Shown: in pieces, positions 7,092-38,356 of the stretch | Numbering within the stretch: the first letter of the stretch is position 1 | Layout of the letters: each line of letters begins with the position of its first letter | Translations under genes and position numbers: made by a program | Assembly: GCA_016188455.1 (NCBI GenBank) | Contig: JACPHR010000019.1 | Location: 1-51,544 of the forward strand | From: Candidatus Tayloriibacteriota bacterium | GTDB taxonomy: Bacteria > Patescibacteriota > Minisyncoccia > Phycocordibacterales > SIBU01 | Direction of reading: 5' to 3' | Length of the DNA stretch: 51,544 nt | Notes under the pieces: model-generated | What the model was told of the DNA's origin: nothing | The model's input: the letters and a program-made list of their open reading frames with translations, nothing else | Databases searched by the model: none

Positions 7092-10000
7092 TTAAACAAC
7101 AAGGTTTATCAGTCTGCCTGGAACATAAACGACTTTTTTAATCGTTCCGTCGCTGACCCATTTCTTTATTTCGCGCAATTCCAGAGCCCTAGTTTTGGCC
7201 TCTTCCGCCGAAAGTTCGCCGTCTATCGGCAGATTGGCTCGCACTTTGCCGTTCACTTGAATAACCAATGTTCCCGTCCCCCGCTCTGTGAGTGCCGGGT
7301 TGTAACTTGGCCACGGCTCAAGATGGATGGAAGTTTTATTTGAAAACGACCAAAGCTCTTCCGTGATGTGCGGCGCGAAAGGCGCCAACAGCCTCAAAAA
7401 AATTTCATAATGATTTTTGGAAACCGCGGGCATTTTTTCAAAATCATTTAGGAGAATCATCAAAGCGCTCACCGCCGTGTTGAAGCGCAGGGCTTCAATG
7501 TCCTCCCCAACTTTTTTGACAGTCTTGTGTAACAGAGATTCATGATTCACAATTTTAGATTCAGGATTCTTGATTCGTGATTCTTGATTGGTGATTCTTT
7601 CCCCAAGTTTCCAAACCCGTTCCAAAAACCGCCTTGGTCCAATCATTGATTCGGTTGACCACGCGATATGCTGGTCAAACGGCCCCATAAACATTTCATA
7701 GAGTCGCAAAGTGTCGGCACCGAATCGTTTTACAATCTCGTCCGGGTTCACGATATTGCCTTTGGACTTGGACATTTTCGCGCCGCCCTCGGCGAGAATC
7801 AAACCGTGAGAAGTGCGTTTGGCGTACGGCTCGCTTGTTGGTACGAGGCCAAAGTCAAAAAGAAACTTGTGCCAGAAACGTGAGTATAAAAGGTGAAGCG
7901 TGGTGTGCTCCATGCCTCCGTTGTACCAGTCCACCGGCAACCAATGTTTTATCTTCTTTTGAATATTGGGGCTTGGAAATTGTTTGGAAATTGGTGCTTG
8001 TGATTTGAGATTTTCGCTTATGCAATAAGCGATATAGTACCAAGATGAGCCGGCCCAGTTGGGCATGGTGTCGGTTTCCCTTCGGGCCGCGCCGCCGCAA
8101 TGCGGACATTTTACATTGACCCATTTTGAAACGTTTGCAAGGGGAGATTCTCCGGTATCGGTCGGTTTGTAATTTTTAACCTTCGGCAATTTCACCGGCA
8201 AATCTTTTTCAAGTACTGGAACCCACCCTGGGTTCATCAACTCCCCGTTTGAAAATTTATGATTTGTGATTTGTTTGGAATTTGTGATTTGTGATTTGTA
8301 ATTTTCCACTAATTTTCTGCAAGCATCGCAGAAAATTAGTGGTATAGGTTCCCCCCAATAGCGCTGGCGGGAAAATACCCAATCGCGGAGTTTGTAGGTC
8401 GTCATGATTTTCCCGCCGACAAATTCGGTAATTTTCTTTTTGGCGTCCGCGCTTCCAAGACCGTTAAATTGGCCGGAGTTAACAAGTAAACCGTTCCCTG
8501 TATAGGCAACGTCTTCCCCTTTTAACCTTTGCCAAAAAACCGAATTAAAACCTCTTCCCCCTTCTAAATATTTTTTAATTTCTTCTTCTTTGACCCAGAC
8601 TAAATCATGTAAAATCTTTTCTCTTTTGGAAACGGAAACTTGGTCAGAACCTGTAAGCTGAAAATATAACGGGTAAAGAAAAGTGAGGCGGTTTTGGTTA
8701 CCGTTTAAAGCAAAGTAGCGAAAAGCTATCGGAGAACCGAGTGCTTTAACAAACTTAACCTTCTGATAACCTGTTTCTTCTACTATTTCTCTTATACCGG
8801 CGGTCATTGGATTCTCTTTGCTATCAATACCTCCAGAAACGGCAACAACGACCCTTTCATCTGAATCGCTAAGCCCTTTCTTATTTAAAAACAAGTACTT
8901 ATTTTCCTGCCAATGTTTTACGAGACAAGCCACGGCTTGCCGAGTTGCCTCCGGTTCATCAGAATGCCAAGCGTCTTTACCTTCATTTCTAACAAACAAC
9001 TGAGCTACAACATTTCTAATCTGCAATTTATATTTCTTCGCAAACTCAAAATCTCGCTCGTCGTGCGCCGGCACCGCCATAATGGCGCCCGTGCCGTAGT
9101 CGGCCAGCACGTAGTCGGCCACAAAAATCGGAATGTTCTCCTGATTGGCCGGATTGACAGCGCTCACTCCTTCAAGCTTCACGCCTGTTTTTTCTTTGCC
9201 CTCCGCTGTCCGCTCAATCTCGCTTTTCTTTTTTGATAGTACGATATATCGTACTACTTCATCTTGATTCTTGATTCTGGATTCTTGATTCTGCATGAGT
9301 TTGCGGACAAACTCATGCTCCGGCGCAATCACCAAGTAGGTGGCGCCGAAAAGCGTGTCGGGGCGGGTGGTAAAAACTTTTATTTCTTCACTAAACCCTA
9401 AACCCTGAAGCCTGAACCCTATCTCCACTCCTTCGCTTCTGCCTATCCAATTTCTCTGCTGAATTTTAATTTTTTCAAGAAAATCAACGGCCTCAAGGTC
9501 GCGGTCAAGCCTGTCGGCGTACTTGGTGATGGTGAGCATCCACTGATCCTTATCACGTTTTTCCACGGGAGTGCCGCAACGTTCGCAAGCGCCGTCCACC
9601 ACTTCCTCGTTGGCCAGACCGATTTTGTCCTTCGGGCACCAGTTAATGGCCATTTTTTTCTTGTAGGCCAAACCCTTTTCAAAAAATTTCAGGAAAATCC
9701 ACTGCGTCCATTTGTAGTAATCCGGGTCGCTGGTAGCAACCTCACGCGACCAATCAAAACTGAAACCAAGCGCTTTGAGCTGGCGGCGAAAATTGTTGGT
9801 AAGCTCCCGCGTTATTGATTCCGGCGATTTTCCGGTTTTAATGGCAAAGTTTTCCGTCGGCAGGCCAAACGCGTCCCAGCCGATTGGATACAAAACATTC
9901 TGTCCTTCGGCGCGGCGCTTACGAGCGATGATGTCCATGGCCGTATAACTGCGGATATGTCCCACATGAAGTCCTTCTCCTGAAAGAAAGGGAAATTCAA

Positions 10001-29692: not shown

Positions 29693-31546
29693 CTATTTGG
29701 GTTTCACCTTGCCGTTTTTTCTGGCCGGCGAAGTGTCCGCTACCTCTTTCGCGATAATGTGCTCGGCCTCGGCCAAGTCGCCGCTAAATCTCTCCAGAAA
29801 CTCCAGTTCCTCACTTGTCAGCGCCCGGGAAGCGCGCACTTTGCGCAGTTTGCGAATGTGGGCGTCAACATCGCCTCGGAGCACCTTAAACGACTGGTGA
29901 AGCACCAAACTCGCCTCCTCGCTCTCCTTTCTCATTGTCCGAGTCAAAGATAGCAGTTTAAACCAGCTCCAAATCCCGGCCGCGGCAATAATCGCAATAC
30001 CGATGAGAAGCGAAAGAGCAATTAGGAAATAGTTGACGATAAAGGTGACCGCATCAGAGAAGAAATGCAACCGAACCGTAACCGCGTACGGTTTGGTTTC
30101 AGGACTGCGCGCTCCCTCGGCGTTCGTGACTCGAACCGTGAAAGTATACTGCCCCACCCAAAGGCGCTTTGAAACAAGGACGCTGAAATCTCCGAGCGAA
30201 TTACTGTTGATTCCGTCCGTTACCACCATAGCGCCGCCCTGACTCACTATAACCTCAACATCCGCATTCGGATAGGTCGTGCCGCGAACGCGCAAAATGT
30301 CTCCAACGGTTAACTCTTCGTTGTAAGAAGTCACTTTAGGCGGCTCAATCCCCACAATTTCAAAATTCTCCTCGGCAGAAGTCACATTTTCGGCGCGGTC
30401 AAAGGCCGACACAAAGACCGTGTATGAACCGGGTTCTAATTTATCAAGCGCATAGGGATTGGCATCAACCGATGCTGAAGTTCGTCTCGGCCCGCCATCG
30501 CCGACTTTAACCTCGTAATGGTCTACGCCAGATGCCTTGTCGGTGGCGTTGAATAGTATGACTGGTTGCGGATTAAGACTTACGGTGCCATGCGGAAACT
30601 TTATGCGAAATTTTTCCGGCGGGGTCTGGTCAATATTCACTTGGAATCGCGTTACCGAACCCCAACCGCTAGAGGTGCGTACCTGAAGCAAAAAATAGAA
30701 TGTGCCGTCAGGAAGATCCTCAACAGTTTTCTCGGTAATCGGCGGGGCATAGCGAATACTTGGCGTTGCTCTCGGGCTCTCGCTAATGATGGTCCGAACC
30801 TCAAGAGCGCCCGCCGGAAGAGTCCACGAAAACTCCGGGGAATTATCCCGATACCATTTTGCCTGGTCGGGATGAGTGGGCGATTGTATCTCCGCCACGC
30901 TTGAAGAACTGCCGGAAAGAGATGACGCGCTTCCCGGAGAAACCGAGGAACGCTCCGCAGGAGAGGAGAGAGTGAACTCGGCGCGCGGCAGACCGGTCAA
31001 GATATTCGTTCCTTTGCCGTCATTGGCCAAAACCGAACCGGAGGAAAAAGCAAGCGTGGCTGAACCGGCCGATTTCACCTTAAAGGTAATCTGCAAGATT
31101 TTTCCGCTTGCTCCCGTAAATCCCGGATTAAGCGCCACACCCTCAAAACTGACCGTACCGTCATTTGAAAAAGACGGTTCCTGCGCCCACAGGTTGATGA
31201 TTGAACCGCTTTTTGATACGGAAATAACTTGCAACTTGTCTCCCGGAAACGAAAGAACGCCTTCAACCGCATTCATGGCCTCCGCGGGACTAGCAACCAC
31301 GATTGAGACCGAAAAAGAGTCGCCAACCTTGAACGCGCCTGAAGAGGGCGAGACGGAAAGCGTCGCGGCAAAAACAGGAGAAGCATATAGAATATAGAAA
31401 ACAGAAAATAGTAAAAGAGTATAAATTTTGGGAGAGATGCCCATTAAACGCTGTCCAGAAACTTTTTCCGGTGATTTTAATTGTGTTTTAGGTGACATAC
31501 TCTCGTTCCTAAATTCTAATGTGCGGTCGCGCGCAAAAGAACGCAA
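29693..31546 (-). CDS. Cohesin-domain surface protein with C-terminal TM anchor
   Basis: Signal peptide; ATLSVSPSSGAFKVGDSFSVSIVVASPAEAMNAVEGVLSFPGDKLQVISVSKSGSIINLWAQEPSFSNDGTVSFEGVALNPGFTGASGKILQITFKVKSAG; Ig-like repeats; TM near C-terminus. Confidence 0.8.
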   Translation of the reverse strand: MRSFARDRTLEFRNESMSPKTQLKSPEKVSGQRLMGISPKIYTLLLFSVFYILYASPVFAATLSVSPSSGAFKVGDSFSVSIVVASPAEAMNAVEGVLSFPGDKLQVISVSKSGSIINLWAQEPSFSNDGTVSFEGVALNPGFTGASGKILQITFKVKSAGSATLAFSSGSVLANDGKGTNILTGLPRAEFTLSSPAERSSVSPGSASSLSGSSSSVAEIQSPTHPDQAKWYRDNSPEFSWTLPAGALEVRTIISESPRATPSIRYAPPITEKTVEDLPDGTFYFLLQVRTSSGWGSVTRFQVNIDQTPPEKFRIKFPHGTVSLNPQPVILFNATDKASGVDHYEVKVGDGGPRRTSASVDANPYALDKLEPGSYTVFVSAFDRAENVTSAEENFEIVGIEPPKVTSYNEELTVGDILRVRGTTYPNADVEVIVSQGGAMVVTDGINSNSLGDFSVLVSKRLWVGQYTFTVRVTNAEGARSPETKPYAVTVRLHFFSDAVTFIVNYFLIALSLLIGIAIIAAAGIWSWFKLLSLTRTMRKESEEASLVLHQSFKVLRGDVDAHIRKLRKVRASRALTSEELEFLERFSGDLAEAEHIIAKEVADTSPARKNGKVKPK

Positions 31547-32789
31547 GCAACAATATAATTATACCCGAGAGAATGAGGGTAAGATACGCGCGGCTATCCA
31601 CAGGAGCGGGCGAAACGAAGGCAACGCGCTCATTGCCCGCTTTGTCCAACGCTTTCACGAAGATAAAGCTCTTCCGGTTTTGGTCGGCAAGCGCTAAGGG
31701 GCTCTCCGCTCTCACCCATTTGCCCTCCGCCGGCAAGGCCAAGCGCGTCTCCTGCGCTTCATAATGGTCAATGCCGGACTTTTTGTCTTGCGTTTCAAAA
31801 ACAACAAAGTATTTGCCGTCCAAAATACTGCTGCTCTTTCCCACCACTGGCGCGAAAATCTCCGGCGGCTCCCGGTCCTCGTCGTAAGACAGCGTCGCGC
31901 GAAGCAAGCGGGAGGATGCTGACTCCTTTCCTCCCCGAACGAGAGAGATTAGCCCTCCTCTCACCTCGGTTGGAAGTGCGCTGCCGGCTCCATCATTTCG
32001 CAGAACTACTCCGTCAACGACGGTAATGGGCGCCTTGCCCTCTGCTACTCCTTCAAAGACAACGAAAAAGAGGGGAATCTTTTCGCCCCAAAGGCCTCCT
32101 GGAATAATCCCTGAAAATGTTATTACGCTCGGCTCTACGGCTTGCGGACGCTCAACCCATAAGCTGACGGCCGATTCCTCATACGTTATGCGATAAGGCG
32201 AGAGGAACCGAGTTGGATACATAACTTTCCCCGAAACGGCATTGGCAGTCTCGCCCTTCGTATCAAGAAAGACGCCGAGTTGAAAAAGCTCGCCTGTTGC
32301 TCCAAAGCTTGTTTTCGGCTCAAGTGAAATTTCTGCGGCAAAAACAGGTGAAGGATTTAGAATATAGAATGTAGAAAATAGGAGGATAAGAAAGAATATA
32401 GAATTTAGAATATAGGATTTAGAATGCTTGCTTTGTGACTTAATCAGGCCGTCAAGCATCTTTCCGATTTCTACAATAGATGCGCCCAATTTTTTATAGT
32501 CGTCATCGTGAAGAAAATTTAGTCTACAAGAGACCTCAATCTGACTTTCTAATTCAGCCGTTGAGGCATAAGCGATGTTGTAGAATTGTAATTTTTCCTT
32601 CTGATGGCCCCTTTTGAAACCCTCCGCTATATTTGAACTGATAGATACCGCCGAACGCCTCATTTGGTTAGTAATGCCGTACAACTCTGATTTGGGAAAT
32701 TTCTCGGTAATGGCATACACGCCCGCGGCCAAATCAAGCGCTTTTTGCCAAACCTTTAGATCTCTAAATGATTTTAATTGTCCCTGCAT
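31509..32789 (-). CDS. S23-type four-helix-bundle module fused in frame to cohesin-like exported protein
   Basis: N-term SFRDLKVWQKALDLAAGVYAITEKFPKSELYGITNQMRRSAVSISSNIAEGFKRG (S23 family); then SIFFLILLFSTFYILNPSPVFAAEISLEPKTSFGATGELFQLGVFLDTKGETANAVSGKVMYP. Confidence 0.75.
   Translation of the reverse strand: MQGQLKSFRDLKVWQKALDLAAGVYAITEKFPKSELYGITNQMRRSAVSISSNIAEGFKRGHQKEKLQFYNIAYASTAELESQIEVSCRLNFLHDDDYKKLGASIVEIGKMLDGLIKSQSKHSKSYILNSIFFLILLFSTFYILNPSPVFAAEISLEPKTSFGATGELFQLGVFLDTKGETANAVSGKVMYPTRFLSPYRITYEESAVSLWVERPQAVEPSVITFSGIIPGGLWGEKIPLFFVVFEGVAEGKAPITVVDGVVLRNDGAGSALPTEVRGGLISLVRGGKESASSRLLRATLSYDEDREPPEIFAPVVGKSSSILDGKYFVVFETQDKKSGIDHYEAQETRLALPAEGKWVRAESPLALADQNRKSFIFVKALDKAGNERVAFVSPAPVDSRAYLTLILSGIIILLLAFFCARPHIRI
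32352..32374 (+). repeat. Inverted repeat copy 1 (23 bp exact) flanking the S23 module
   Basis: aggatttagaatatagaatgtag; reverse complement at 32801-32823. Confidence 0.9.
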
Positions 32790-32800
32790 AATCCTATATC

Positions 32801-32823
32801 CTACATTCTATATTCTAAATCCT
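32801..32823 (-). repeat. Inverted repeat copy 2 (23 bp exact) flanking the S23 module
   Basis: ctacattctatattctaaatcct. Confidence 0.9.
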
Positions 32824-32862
32824 AAATCCTAGATTCTATATTCTCTATCCTTCTTCTCCCCC

Positions 32863-34581
32863 CTACCCCGTCCAATAAAACGCCATAATGCTGAAGTCAA
32901 CCAGATTCACTTTGCCGTCGCCGTTTAAGTCAACATTCTTTGGAGGATTCGGCTTTTTATACCAAAACGCGAGAATGGAGTAATCAATGAGATTAACCTT
33001 CCCGTCACTGTTCACATCTTCCTTAAGTTTGACCGACTTTTTGGGAGACGTTACTTTGGCGAGCACGGTCTTTGTCCCGACCTTAAACGCCACGCTCTTT
33101 CCAAAAGCGCTAATTTCGTTTGCTTTTGCGGCCTTGGCTTTGGTGAGATGGTCTCCAAAGTCAAGCGCGGCCGTATCAAAATTATAGAGATACGAACCGT
33201 CCTTGTCTGTCGCCACCTTGCCGAAAAATTCCTCGTCCGAATTGACGGCAATGGTAACCTCGGAGTTCGGAGCGCTCACGCCAAAAATAGCCAGGTTCTC
33301 GCCGCGTTTAACTTCGGTTTTATCCACCGCGATGGTCGGCGCTATAAAAATGCCGCCCATCTCAACCGTAACGCCCGAAGTTACCGTCACCGGAAAAGTA
33401 AAAAGCGACGACCTCCTTCCCTGACCGTCTTCAGAATAAACCCCAAAAATATAGCCGCCCGCGGAAATCCCTGAAACCGCCACCCTGAAATTCGCCGCCG
33501 GGTCGGCAAGAGTTTGTGCCGCGATTTGCGCGTCTTTCAGAATTGTCACTTTCATCCCCGGATAGGCGCGACCGGAAAAGACAACGCTCGTTACCGGGGC
33601 GATGTAACCGCCCCCTCCGCCTCCACCGCCTCCGCCTCCTCCCCCGCTACTGCTTGATGATAAAGAGGGGGTTGGAACAGGAGCCGGAGCCGTACCCATG
33701 ACCGTAAAGGTGCTGAAATGCGTTGAACTGAAAGTTACTTTGTTCTGTGTGGTATCAACAGTGCTTCCGCTTATAAGCTGCCAGGCGGAACCATCCCACC
33801 GGTAGGCGCCCAAGGTGCTCTCGTCAATGCCGCTTATGTCGTCGTCCGTGTAATAAAAGGTAATGATGGCAGGTTCACTTAGGGTCGTGATGGCGCTGTT
33901 GTCGGAGTACTTCCTAAATGACGCTTCAAACCAGGTGTTGGCGGCGAGCTTGCCGCTCGGCAGCGGTCTGCCGGAGAGCGCCGCGCTCCTCGGTATCCCC
34001 TGCATGTTCATGAAGTACCGTTCGCCGGTCCCGATGATATTTGGCGGGAGAATCATCTCATGTCTCGTCCCGTTTGGGTTCAAAATGGCGGAGGTTGACG
34101 CCGTGCCAGGGTCAAAATCCAGCGCCCGCACGGCATACACATTCGCCGTTGGCACGGCCGAGAACTCGGTTGATGTCGCGACGACAAAACCGGAAGAATT
34201 CTTCACCCGAACAACGAAATAGTATCTGGTGCCATTCGTAAGGTTCGGAAAGGAAGAAGCAGTGGTACTTCCCATGACCGTGAAAACATAAGGTCCGCCG
34301 CTTGAAAGCGCGCGTCCGACTTCATAATGATTAAAGAAAATACCGGAGGAGGTACTGGTTGCCGGCGCCCAAAACATCCAGATCTCCGCGTTCCCCGGAA
34401 AGATTTGAGGAATGGGCGGCGCGGCAAGAGGCGGCGGCACTACGGTCACATATATCGCGGTGCTTTGATTTCCGGCGTATGCGGTAAAAGCAAAAAAAAG
34501 CGCGCCGCACCAAAATGCCGTCAATAAAAAACAGAACGGAGCACCCGCAACCCGCTTTTTCGTTCGGTTTCTCTCATTCAT
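32863..34581 (-). CDS. Exported FN3-like protein with C-terminal dockerin-type domain
   Basis: C-term DVNSDGKVNLIDYSILAFWYKKPNPPKNVDLNGDGKVNLVDFSIMAFYWTG, duplicated Ca-binding dockerin repeat; FN3-like N-term; poly-Gly linker. Confidence 0.85.
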   Translation of the reverse strand: MNERNRTKKRVAGAPFCFLLTAFWCGALFFAFTAYAGNQSTAIYVTVVPPPLAAPPIPQIFPGNAEIWMFWAPATSTSSGIFFNHYEVGRALSSGGPYVFTVMGSTTASSFPNLTNGTRYYFVVRVKNSSGFVVATSTEFSAVPTANVYAVRALDFDPGTASTSAILNPNGTRHEMILPPNIIGTGERYFMNMQGIPRSAALSGRPLPSGKLAANTWFEASFRKYSDNSAITTLSEPAIITFYYTDDDISGIDESTLGAYRWDGSAWQLISGSTVDTTQNKVTFSSTHFSTFTVMGTAPAPVPTPSLSSSSSGGGGGGGGGGGGGYIAPVTSVVFSGRAYPGMKVTILKDAQIAAQTLADPAANFRVAVSGISAGGYIFGVYSEDGQGRRSSLFTFPVTVTSGVTVEMGGIFIAPTIAVDKTEVKRGENLAIFGVSAPNSEVTIAVNSDEEFFGKVATDKDGSYLYNFDTAALDFGDHLTKAKAAKANEISAFGKSVAFKVGTKTVLAKVTSPKKSVKLKEDVNSDGKVNLIDYSILAFWYKKPNPPKNVDLNGDGKVNLVDFSIMAFYWTG

Positions 34582-35750: not shown

Positions 35751-35841
35751 TTGGATTTCTTTTGCCCGCGCGCCTGAACTTCGTCCGTGCGAAGTCGGGT
35801 GGGATTTAATGCTTCACGCTTCACGCTTCACGCTTCAAGTT

Positions 35842-36531
35842 TTACGGATTCGCGGTTGCCGTGTAAGTCAATGGCCCGGTATAGGTGCCTGTCTTCTGGG
35901 TCACGGGCACATCAAGATAGTATTGGACAGTATTTAGATGCGCGGTTGCGCTGTAGGAACCGCTGCCTGCGTTTCCAATGCGACTAACGTTCGTAGAGCT
36001 GGCAATACCCGCCCAAAGCTGACTGGCGTTAAACATGGCGTCGCTGGTCCCCCACCAGGCGGTGGAAAGAAATGACACGCCGTTAGTAGATGACGCGCTC
36101 ATCACGCGGAAGGCAAGCACATCATCACCGTTGGTAATGGAAACGGCATTGCCGGCAGAGGTGGTCGCTGAAGCCGCGGCCACAATCCACTGCGGGTCCT
36201 TGTCTGTAATCTCAGTGCCAGAGCCGTCATTCATTGCCTGCGCTGTCAGAGTCACATTATCTCCGGAGAGCGTTACATTCCAGCCGGAAGTATTATTGGT
36301 TGTGACAGACAAAGTGCTCGTCGCCTGGACCGAAGTGCCAGGGGAAAGCGTTGCAAACTGGTTGGTAGTTACCGTAAAAGACAAAGCCGAGCTAACCGTT
36401 ACGCTCAAAGTGGGAGTCTGGGTGGCTGCAAAGACAAGGTAGCCGGAAAACAGTACGAGCGCGATAAGGAAAGCGGTGATAAACGGATTGGCATCATCTT
36501 TAGAAAAAATAAAAATCTTCTTGGAAATCAT
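35842..36531 (-). CDS. WxL-like exported surface protein, paralogue of 37214-38356
   Basis: SLSFTVTTNQFATLSPGTSVQATSTLSVTTNNTSGWNVTLSGDNVTLTAQAMNDG...FLSTAWWGTSDAMFNASQLWAGIASSTNVSRIGNAGSGSYSA. Confidence 0.6.
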   Translation of the reverse strand: MISKKIFIFSKDDANPFITAFLIALVLFSGYLVFAATQTPTLSVTVSSALSFTVTTNQFATLSPGTSVQATSTLSVTTNNTSGWNVTLSGDNVTLTAQAMNDGSGTEITDKDPQWIVAAASATTSAGNAVSITNGDDVLAFRVMSASSTNGVSFLSTAWWGTSDAMFNASQLWAGIASSTNVSRIGNAGSGSYSATAHLNTVQYYLDVPVTQKTGTYTGPLTYTATANP

Positions 36532-36648
36532 TTTTTATATGTTATCAAGTGTGTAAATAAACTCGACCGATTCAAAACAAAAAACCAACTAGCTACTGCT
36601 AATTGGACCGCAAACTACCACTTCCCCAGAATTTATCTGTGTCTGTGC

Positions 36649-36674
36649 AAGAGAGAGAGAGAGAGAGAGAGAGT
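36649..36674. repeat. (AG)13 dinucleotide microsatellite
   Basis: Direct reading; ~120 bp upstream of the 35842-36531 start codon. Confidence 0.97.
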
Positions 36675-36809
36675 TAAACATGATTTTCACACTTACATGA
36701 TAGCACATATCAGAATGGCCAAGTATAATGAGTTATCCACAACCATATTCCTGAAGCCTAAAGCGTAAAACTTGAAACAAAATCAAGCTCGGGCTTCAGG
36801 TTTCAGGCT

Positions 36810-37166
36810 TCAGGCTTCGTGTTTCAAGTTCCGTATAACTCCCCATAACATTGCTCCGATATCTTCTGCCAAATTTATTGCTTGTTCATACTCATCTTTG
36901 GCAATATATTTTTCAACCAACGAAAAGTGGAGAAGATACTTTGATTCTTTAAGCGACCCGTAAGAGATTTCAAGAAAATTTTTATGGACTTTATCCCTTC
37001 CTCGAGCATATCCTTCAACATAATTAAGAATGATTGATAAAGACGCTCTCCTTAACTGAGAAGTTACGCCGTATAATTCCTCTTTGAGAAATTTCCGCGT
37101 CAGAGCATAAACTAAATGAACATATTCATCCATCTTTCTTTTTAGTTTCTCATGATAATTTTCCAT
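36810..37166 (-). CDS. S23-type four-helix-bundle protein
   Basis: MDEYVHLVYALTRKFLKEELYGVTSQLRRASLSIILNYVEGYARGRDKVHKNFLEISYGSLKESKYLLHFS. Confidence 0.88.
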   Translation of the reverse strand: MENYHEKLKRKMDEYVHLVYALTRKFLKEELYGVTSQLRRASLSIILNYVEGYARGRDKVHKNFLEISYGSLKESKYLLHFSLVEKYIAKDEYEQAINLAEDIGAMLWGVIRNLKHEA

Positions 37167-37213
37167 GTTTTTTGCTTTTTATGTTTTAGGTTTCAAGCTT
37201 CACGCTTCAAGTT

Positions 37214-38356
37214 TTACGGATTGGCCGTAGCAGTATAAGTCAAGGTTCCAGTGTAGGTGCCTGTCTTCTGGGTCGCCGGCACATCAAGATAATACTGGAC
37301 GGTGTTTAGATGGTCAGACGCGCTTAAAGAGCCGGTGCCCGCGTTTCCGATACGGCTCACATTGGTGGAACTGGCAATACCCGCCCAAAGCTGACTGGCG
37401 TTAAACATGGCGTCGCTCGTCCCCCACCAGGCGGTAGAGAGAAAGGCTGCGCCGTTGGTAGATGACGCGCTCATCACGCGAAAGGCAAGCACATCCTGAC
37501 CGTTGGTAATGGCCGTGGCGTTGCCGGCGGTTGTCGTTGCCGCACCCGAAGGAATAATCCACTGGGGAGTAAGGTCTGTAATTTCGGTGCCAGCGCCGTC
37601 ATTCATGGCCTTGGCCGTGGCGGTAACGTTATTGCCGGAGAGCGTTACATTCCAGCCGGAAGCATTGTTGGTGTTGACATTCAAAGTGCTGGTAGCTTTT
37701 ACGGGAGAGCCCGGAGAAAGAGTGGCGAAGTTGTTGGTGGTAACCACGAAGGTAAGCGAGGCTTCGGCGCCGGCTGCGGTTCCGCATATCTTGGTGGTGT
37801 AGGCAGTGCCGTCCCCCACATGGGCGTTGGTGGTTCCGGTCATTGAGCCGAGCGTGGTGTCAAAACCTGTGCAGTTCGTTGCTTGATAACCGACCGAAAC
37901 GCTCCCGCCCGAAGGCGCCTGAATGCAAGCATTATTGGCGTAATTGCTCTGCGAATTTTGCTCGGAATGCGCATTGGTCGTTGCCGATAATTTTAAGGCC
38001 GTGGCAAAAGTGCCGGAACACGAATTGCCAAGTCCCGTTACGCCGCTACAGCAGACAAGTTGAGTATAATTTGATTGGCTTGGAAGTTCGGCGTGGGCGT
38101 TAGCAGTTCCCGACATTCGCCAAATCACCGTGCCCGAGGGACAGGTGGTGGCCACCGAACAGGAAAGCGTGCCGGCATTAACCGTATGCAAAAACCCTAA
38201 CCCCACCAAAGCCAGCGTTAACCCCGTTAGAAGCCGTGCGCAGAAAAAATTTATCAAATTTTTTCTGCCTTGAAGATATCGGCCATTTGCACTATGCCGA
38301 TAATTTCTATGATAGTTTTTACTTGTGGATAACTCAACTTCTAACGGAGTTGACAT
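37214..38356 (-). CDS. WxL-like exported surface protein with N-terminal Cys-rich repeats
   Basis: LHTVNAGTLSCSVATTCPSGTVIWRMSGTANAHAE...; C-terminal half closely matches 35842-36531. Confidence 0.65.
   Translation of the reverse strand: MSTPLEVELSTSKNYHRNYRHSANGRYLQGRKNLINFFCARLLTGLTLALVGLGFLHTVNAGTLSCSVATTCPSGTVIWRMSGTANAHAELPSQSNYTQLVCCSGVTGLGNSCSGTFATALKLSATTNAHSEQNSQSNYANNACIQAPSGGSVSVGYQATNCTGFDTTLGSMTGTTNAHVGDGTAYTTKICGTAAGAEASLTFVVTTNNFATLSPGSPVKATSTLNVNTNNASGWNVTLSGNNVTATAKAMNDGAGTEITDLTPQWIIPSGAATTTAGNATAITNGQDVLAFRVMSASSTNGAAFLSTAWWGTSDAMFNASQLWAGIASSTNVSRIGNAGTGSLSASDHLNTVQYYLDVPATQKTGTYTGTLTYTATANP

Follow-up and report, generated by a model that had tools for sequence, protein, structure and literature searches.

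What is a small S23 gene doing between inverted repeats at the 5' end of a gene for a surface protein? The question arises in a 51,544-nucleotide contig of Candidatus Tayloriibacteriota bacterium (GenBank JACPHR010000019.1), analysed at its full length and called the window here. It is contig C27 of an 893-kb genome that is 98% complete and carries nine genes of the S23 family (PF05635). A great number of genomes carry annotated S23 proteins to which no function is assigned, the way in which rRNA intervening sequences (IVSs) spread is not known, and for the over-representation of heptanucleotide repeats no mechanism has been established (PMC4679880, PMC4692102). The architecture described here links the three and gives the heptamers a candidate protein partner. 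In many bacterial phyla, S23 genes are commonly bounded by mirrored arrays of degenerate heptamers, and gene and arrays together form a discrete unit, which is probably a minimal mobile element.

The S23 gene of the window lies between mirrored heptamer arrays

The initial annotation described a 23-bp exact inverted repeat, AGGATTTAGAATATAGAATGTAG at 32352-32374 with its exact inverse at 32801-32823, enclosing an S23 coding part. Both copies are present and exact, and the enclosed open reading frame (ORF), which starts at 32789 on the reverse strand, matches PF05635 (E 2.6e-37; domain at 32451-32765) and the NCBIfam four-helix-bundle model TIGR02436 (122 bits, cut-off 24). However, the repeat is not a unique 23-mer but a slice of period-7 arrays that enclose the gene at 32780-32870 (score 0.81) and 32341-32431. 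The arrays consist of degenerate heptamers, TTCTAWA in one orientation and WTAGAAT in the other, mirrored on either side of the gene. Once extended, the arms match over 32 nt at 94% (32352-32383/32792-32823), and additional overlapping inverted pairs extend up to 46-47 nt at 77-80%. The upstream arm (32790-32857; TAGAATW units on the sense strand) ends at the S23 start codon. It pairs in inverted orientation with an inner downstream arm at 32392-32425 (pair I1/I7; inverted score 25.5 versus direct 4.0) and with an outer one at 32351-32383, which holds the left 23-mer (pair I3; inverted 27.0 versus direct 4.0). Period scans from 5 to 11 across the whole window found several arrays at period 7 only. 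As RNA, the element is predicted to fold with a long closing stem (z = -6.8). Its site is a protein gene and not the inside of an rRNA gene. The S23 protein is a distant relative of Avd/bAvd (Avd model score 46.5, below the family cut-off of 80). No match to anti-phage defence families was found.

The S23 frame continues without a stop into an exported protein, as had been noted, giving an ORF of 426 aa (31509-32789) that joins S23 to an exported surface protein with a cohesin-like domain (31509-32440, reverse strand). The outer arm is indeed read as FSTFYILNPS within the signal peptide, which is thus partly encoded by heptamers. The closest relative in the window, a paralogue at 29693-31546, has no S23, yet it carries a heptamer array at the same place of its signal peptide (31373-31409; direct-repeat family D1, 87% over 47 nt to 32335-32381). 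The exported protein had no match in the three relatives of the same genus, so no empty site was obtained for the window locus itself. In one genome of another family, two S23 units with nearly the same upstream arms are separated by 5.5 kb. Both continue in frame into exported proteins, a different one for each unit, with signal peptides that heptamers encode in part (FYILYSIFPISPANA); one of these proteins is a relative of the exported protein of the window. Therefore, heptamers of the TTCTATA type can serve as signal-peptide code. Taken together, the initial interpretation of an IVS-related element at the 5' end of a surface-protein gene stands; it had overlooked that heptamers differ from locus to locus, that a second S23 gene in the window has arrays of its own, and that arrays also occur without a gene.

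Heptamer arms occur at most of the S23 genes surveyed

Inspection by eye places all nine S23 genes of the genome between mirrored arrays with a repeat of about 7 bp, and every locus has a heptamer of its own (TAGAATW, GAATCAN, GAATTAC, AGATTTA, GYTTCAR, GTTGGTA, AAATGGA, and ACTKAAT/ACTTATA at two loci with some 8-bp steps). We surveyed 244 S23 loci, 130 from Candidate Phyla Radiation (CPR) genomes, 80 from named genomes and 34 from viral contigs of IMG/VR; the collections were scanned with a profile from a closer set of S23 proteins. The best period among 4-11 was sought in the 180-bp flanks, and stretches 420-600 bp away served as controls. Period 7 was best upstream of S23 at 92/130 CPR, 49/78 named-genome and 31/34 IMG/VR loci, and downstream at 87/130, 53/79 and 26/33, respectively. 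This corresponds to 63-91% across the flank groups, whereas the control stretches gave 10-32%. A period-7 score of at least 0.6 was reached by 50-71% of S23 flanks and by 0-6% of controls. The named genomes include isolates of Dysgonomonas, Flavobacterium, Winogradskyella, Chryseobacterium and Geobacter.

The initial annotation had asked whether other genomic S23 genes are flanked by inverted repeats and would have been refuted by their absence; the outcome was the opposite. With the 99th percentile of mismatched loci as the threshold, the arms matched as inverted repeats at 165 of 240 loci and as direct repeats at 13. Thus, the repeat in the window is not a product of chance. In the same 20 genomes, an array was present at 34 of 44 S23 loci, while GIY-YIG genes taken as controls had one at 3 of 30 (one control flank holds masked bases). 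The presence of S23 is patchy (161 of 287 genomes), and one query against phage records gave no S23 match at E <= 1e-5.

S23 genes of cyanobacterial plasmids are bounded by arrays of GGGAGTA, GGGAACA or GGGAAAA. On plasmid pNe_5 of Nostoc edaphicum (L360), a GGGAGTA-armed S23 element lies between two ribonucleotide reductase subunit genes, in the opposite direction to them.

Arms coincide with the ends of copies, and relatives have empty sites

In genome G084, two S23 units (L054 and L195) are 91% identical and occupy different sites about 2.7 kb apart. Their similarity runs from the first upstream heptamer to the last downstream heptamer, and the DNA outside is unrelated. In this copy pair, the terminal inverted repeats coincide with the ends of the homologous copies, that is, the arms are the ends of the element. 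Likewise, 63 pairs of loci were similar in DNA along the entire gene and had space for an extension; in 50 of them the similarity remained within 130 bp of the gene.

Empty sites, which the initial annotation had proposed to look for in relatives, were found at two junctions. The atpG-atpD junction holds an S23 unit in the source genome and a short spacer without S23 in the congeners G002 and G003 and in the relatives G006 and G008. In G010, from another family, the same junction carries inverted heptamer arrays and no gene. At the rpsO-NYN site, the congeners have no S23. Bounded copies and empty sites together indicate that the S23 unit is a discrete element that is gained or lost and has the arms as its ends; its status as an element is well supported.

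Where the neighbouring genes are co-directional, S23 points in the same direction as they do at 84/85 CPR loci and 50/53 named-genome loci. This implies either that insertion and transcription are coupled or that copies in the other orientation do not survive. The same operon junctions host S23 elements with different heptamers in different families. Recurrent junctions lie before a PrgI-like gene (L009, L010, L016, L039, L041), between rpsG and fusA (L037, L044), at rpiB (L018, L019) and at TrxR (L032, L033, L036); such junctions are either hot spots or places of old insertion at which the arms have since changed.

S23 elements also occur in 16S rRNA genes. In the source genome, L007 adjoins the 5' end of the 16S rRNA, and in a different family an S23 gene with CTGGAAR heptamers (L043) is found at the same position inside an intact 16S match. 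These two loci bear out the relation to rRNA intervening sequences that had been suggested for the window element. The S23-carrying 16S gene at L007 also contains a GIY-YIG gene that lies between the copies of a short inverted repeat (L007:1333-1608 on G000:C4; CCCAGCACTTTCTA / TAGAAAGTGCTGGG).

Heptamer type follows the S23 protein

Heptamer similarity between loci increases with S23 protein identity, and only when loci are compared in the same orientation. After removal of pairs that share neighbours, similar heptamers were found in 0.2-2% of pairs below 45% protein identity and in 36% of pairs above 65%, and the correlation (r = 0.25) was reached in none of 1000 permutations. Joint inheritance alone accounts for part of this correlation. 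The heptamers have both fixed and free positions, and at a given locus the fixed ones correspond between its two arms (mean r 0.55; 119 of 129 positive). Such a pattern is the trace that recognition of a degenerate motif would be expected to leave. Exact unit-by-unit hairpin pairing was also considered as the main constraint on the arms and was rejected because the signal was weak (17.8 matches of 21, versus 17.2 in shuffled order).

Arm length has a median of 33 bp with a peak at 4-5 units, a value partly set by the seed window. Published structures show S23 as a pentameric ring; the solved relatives 2gsc and 2rld have five chains each, and the Xanthomonas S23 protein is described as a homopentamer (PMC4990558). 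One heptamer per S23 subunit may be envisaged; arms of 4-5 units are compatible with this, the count being partly set by the method.

Arrays without a gene are denser in S23-bearing genomes

We sampled 20-kb stretches for arrays not next to S23. Such solo arrays numbered 165 per Mb where the CPR genomes were rich in S23 and 8 per Mb where they had none. The former figure is driven by a few dense genomes, with about half of the arrays from G090. When the comparison was matched by order, the densities were 44 and 9 per Mb, and arrays were present in 11/23 versus 3/35 stretches (p = 8e-4). Among the other periods, period 8 gave the sole other nominal signal in this test. Overall, gene-less arrays are about 5-20 times denser in the sampled S23-bearing genomes. 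S23-free palindromic pairs of about 130 bp were also seen, three of them in one stretch. One stretch of G090 (L254, G090:C1:100000-119999) contains very dense mosaics in which several heptamer types stand in a row and recur every few kb; this genome has no PF00078 reverse transcriptase.

Proposed mechanism and alternatives

We consider it likely that the S23 unit is a minimal mobile element of wide distribution, that its S23 pentamer recognises the heptamers of its own unit, and that gene-less arrays are its copies or remnants. The unit would be a small selfish element of about 0.45-0.6 kb, composed of a left arm of about 4-6 degenerate heptamers, the S23 gene, and a right arm with the same heptamers inverted. 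We infer that the pentameric ring most likely binds the heptamers of its own element sequence-specifically and would hold both arms together, as DNA or as RNA, while a host enzyme would move or copy the unit. Elements lie between genes of transcription units, pointing the way these are transcribed, and also in rRNA, with the arms as the stem of the known IVS. Solo arrays, whether intergenic or in frame within proteins, most likely arose as copies without the gene, or as remnants, that were mobilised in trans. In the window, one element lies at the start of a surface-protein gene, where an arm encodes part of the signal peptide and the two frames are joined. In this scheme, rRNA IVSs are likely one habitat of the element, and bacterial heptanucleotide repeats are likely its relics. 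If true, this is a mobile-element design in which the end sequences change from copy to copy and the protein appears to follow the ends. Each of the three linked puzzles is directly testable with one protein, one heptamer and one binding or mobility assay. In a stronger form, S23 itself would be a sequence-specific mobilising protein of a novel type: a pentamer with catalytic or strand-exchange activity that reads the heptamers of its own element, moves elements whose ends can change, and has given rise to the heptanucleotide repeats of bacterial genomes. This form seems rather unlikely.

Several observations weigh against the mobile-element reading. No movement event was directly seen, and no target-site duplication was established, the empty sites being too diverged for base-exact junctions. 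L054 and L195 lie only about 2.7 kb apart, and local duplication is possible for this pair. No catalytic domain was recognised in S23; only PF05635/bAvd and the domains of the exported protein were matched. About a quarter to a third of S23 loci have no clear arms at the thresholds used, and the unit-by-unit complementarity of the arms is barely above that of shuffled order. In the viral-contig set the co-orientation is reversed (3/15, that is 3:12, with several loci near-duplicates). Finally, no S23 was detected in G046, yet this genome is the source of most arrays in the negative set, array density being low in the rest of that set. Thus, loss of S23 with persistence of the arrays, or another route to arrays, must be possible.

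Alternatively, S23 could be an ordinary immobile cellular gene whose arms form a regulatory or RNA-processing hairpin, for example with RNase III sites or for S23 autoregulation. The strong RNA stem and the strict co-orientation with the operon would suit such a hairpin, and RNase III cuts the IVS ends in Coxiella (PMC4990558). Nevertheless, we regard this explanation as unlikely, since relatives have empty sites, copies are bounded at the arms and occupy unrelated sites, S23-free arrays are found throughout genomes, and S23 is patchily present (161/287 genomes). It is extremely unlikely that the arrays are slippage-born simple repeats beside which S23 genes merely land. Although polymerase slippage has been proposed for heptanucleotide repeats, which many genomes contain in excess (PMC4679880, PMC4692102), slippage alone does not make arms that are inverted at each locus. 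Moreover, heptamer type follows the S23 lineage, the arrays are missing at GIY-YIG genes of the same genomes, and no comparable enrichment is seen at the other periods tested. At the window locus, the fusion of S23 with the surface protein might itself be the selected product, which would be compatible with an element. In favour of this are the two other in-frame fusions, seen in a genome of a different family, in which heptamers encode part of the signal peptides. We find it improbable because the paralogue in the window lacks S23 and most S23 genes are separate ORFs of about 106-150 aa.

Other alternatives concern the moving enzyme. By analogy with its relative Avd, which acts with the reverse transcriptase of diversity-generating retroelements (DGRs), the S23 element might move via RNA and a cellular reverse transcriptase. 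Its distant relationship to Avd/bAvd, the bias of insertion to the transcribed strand of operons and its occurrence in rRNA are consistent with this route. However, 8 of 20 S23-rich genomes lack a PF00078 match, among them G090, where arrays are densest, and the Avd score stays below the family cut-off (46.5 of 80); we judge the route to be quite improbable. No reverse transcriptase is among the ORFs listed around the S23 loci of the source genome. A Y1/RAYT transposase acting in trans on the arrays as hairpins of the repetitive extragenic palindromic (REP) kind, with S23 as a passenger, is very unlikely. Y1 matches (PF01797) do occur in 16 of the 20 S23-rich genomes. They are absent from G221, G331, G197 and G084, the last of which has 11 S23 genes and a recent copy pair, and heptamer type follows S23 instead of being shared genome-wide. 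G221 and G331 have neither a PF00078 reverse transcriptase nor a Y1 transposase.

Relation to known systems

rRNA IVSs with S23, for example in Leptospira and Coxiella, are described as parasitic elements with complementary ends (PMC4990558), and ORFs of the 23S_rRNA_IVP type are reported from 16S and 23S insertions of CPR bacteria (PMC11270868). The elements described here share the S23 gene between complementary stem-forming ends and the patchy distribution, and they have members in 16S rRNA. They differ in that most of their sites lie between protein-coding genes or within a signal peptide, their ends are locus-specific heptamer arrays, and gene-less arrays occur. In the portions of these two papers available to us, heptamers and non-rRNA elements are not described. 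We regard the S23 unit as an IVS-like element with heptamer ends, and there is a real chance that it forms a separate class of its own.

Reported bacterial heptamers include TAACTGA (PMC4679880), GGGAATC/GGGGAYT of Xanthomonas and Nostoc, and the heptanucleotides of Calothrix (PMC4692102). Like these short tandemly repeated repetitive (STRR)-like sequences, the arrays here are tandem degenerate 7-bp units, intergenic or in frame, with scattered phylogeny and with period 7 prevailing over other periods. Unlike in those two papers, which name no S23 partner, the arrays here bound S23 genes. Among the open-access papers searched, none was found that links heptamers to S23.

Insertion sequences with miniature inverted-repeat transposable elements also have terminal inverted repeats, bounded copies and gene-less derivatives. 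In contrast to them, the S23 elements have no transposase and no target-site duplication was seen, and their ends are made of tandem degenerate heptamers, with a different sequence at almost every locus. In the REPIN/RAYT family, short gene-less palindromic repeats are accompanied by a low-copy gene that keeps its own repeat type. The S23 elements resemble this family in both respects. However, the protein there is a Y1 transposase and the repeats are REP hairpins (PMC8049555), whereas here an S23 four-helix bundle without a recognised catalytic site is associated with heptamer arrays. Avd of DGRs has the same superfamily fold, but no reverse transcriptase or variable repeat was seen next to S23, and the Avd model scored below its cut-off.

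Other arrays and genes of the source genome

The second S23 gene of the window (L006; 36810-37166, reverse strand, PF05635 E 4e-25) has an upstream heptamer arm at 37157-37226 (GTTTCAA/GCTTCAC). Downstream arms at 36745-36841 consist of an inner (GGCTTCA)n array (36784-36841) and an outer inverted copy (inverted pair 36750-36769/36795-36814). A (GA)n run of about 27 bp lies in the intergenic DNA downstream of this gene (36646-36672).

Five further arrays in the window reached the threshold of the period-7 scan. A solo GCTTCAC array at 35796-35858 is of the heptamer type of the second S23 element. One array in mnmA (TTTTGAC, 2917-2990) is read as KKVKSQKSKVK. The remaining three are in leuS, where the arrays correspond to variable or inserted peptide segments: a GATTCNT array at 7535-7591 in a variable segment, an array at 8247-8312 that forms an in-frame insertion of about 25 residues absent from relatives, and a GATTCTT array at 9244-9294. 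Within the synthetase encoded by this leuS gene, an insertion at 8480-9010 resembles a Nudix domain (GIREIVEETGYQ).

Beside another S23 locus of the genome (L009:2322-2750 on G000:C1), a GxxExxY-like gene lies between short inverted repeats (CATACCAATATACGAATT / AATTCGTATATTGGTATG) without a heptamer array. This is another single-gene unit bounded by inverted repeats.
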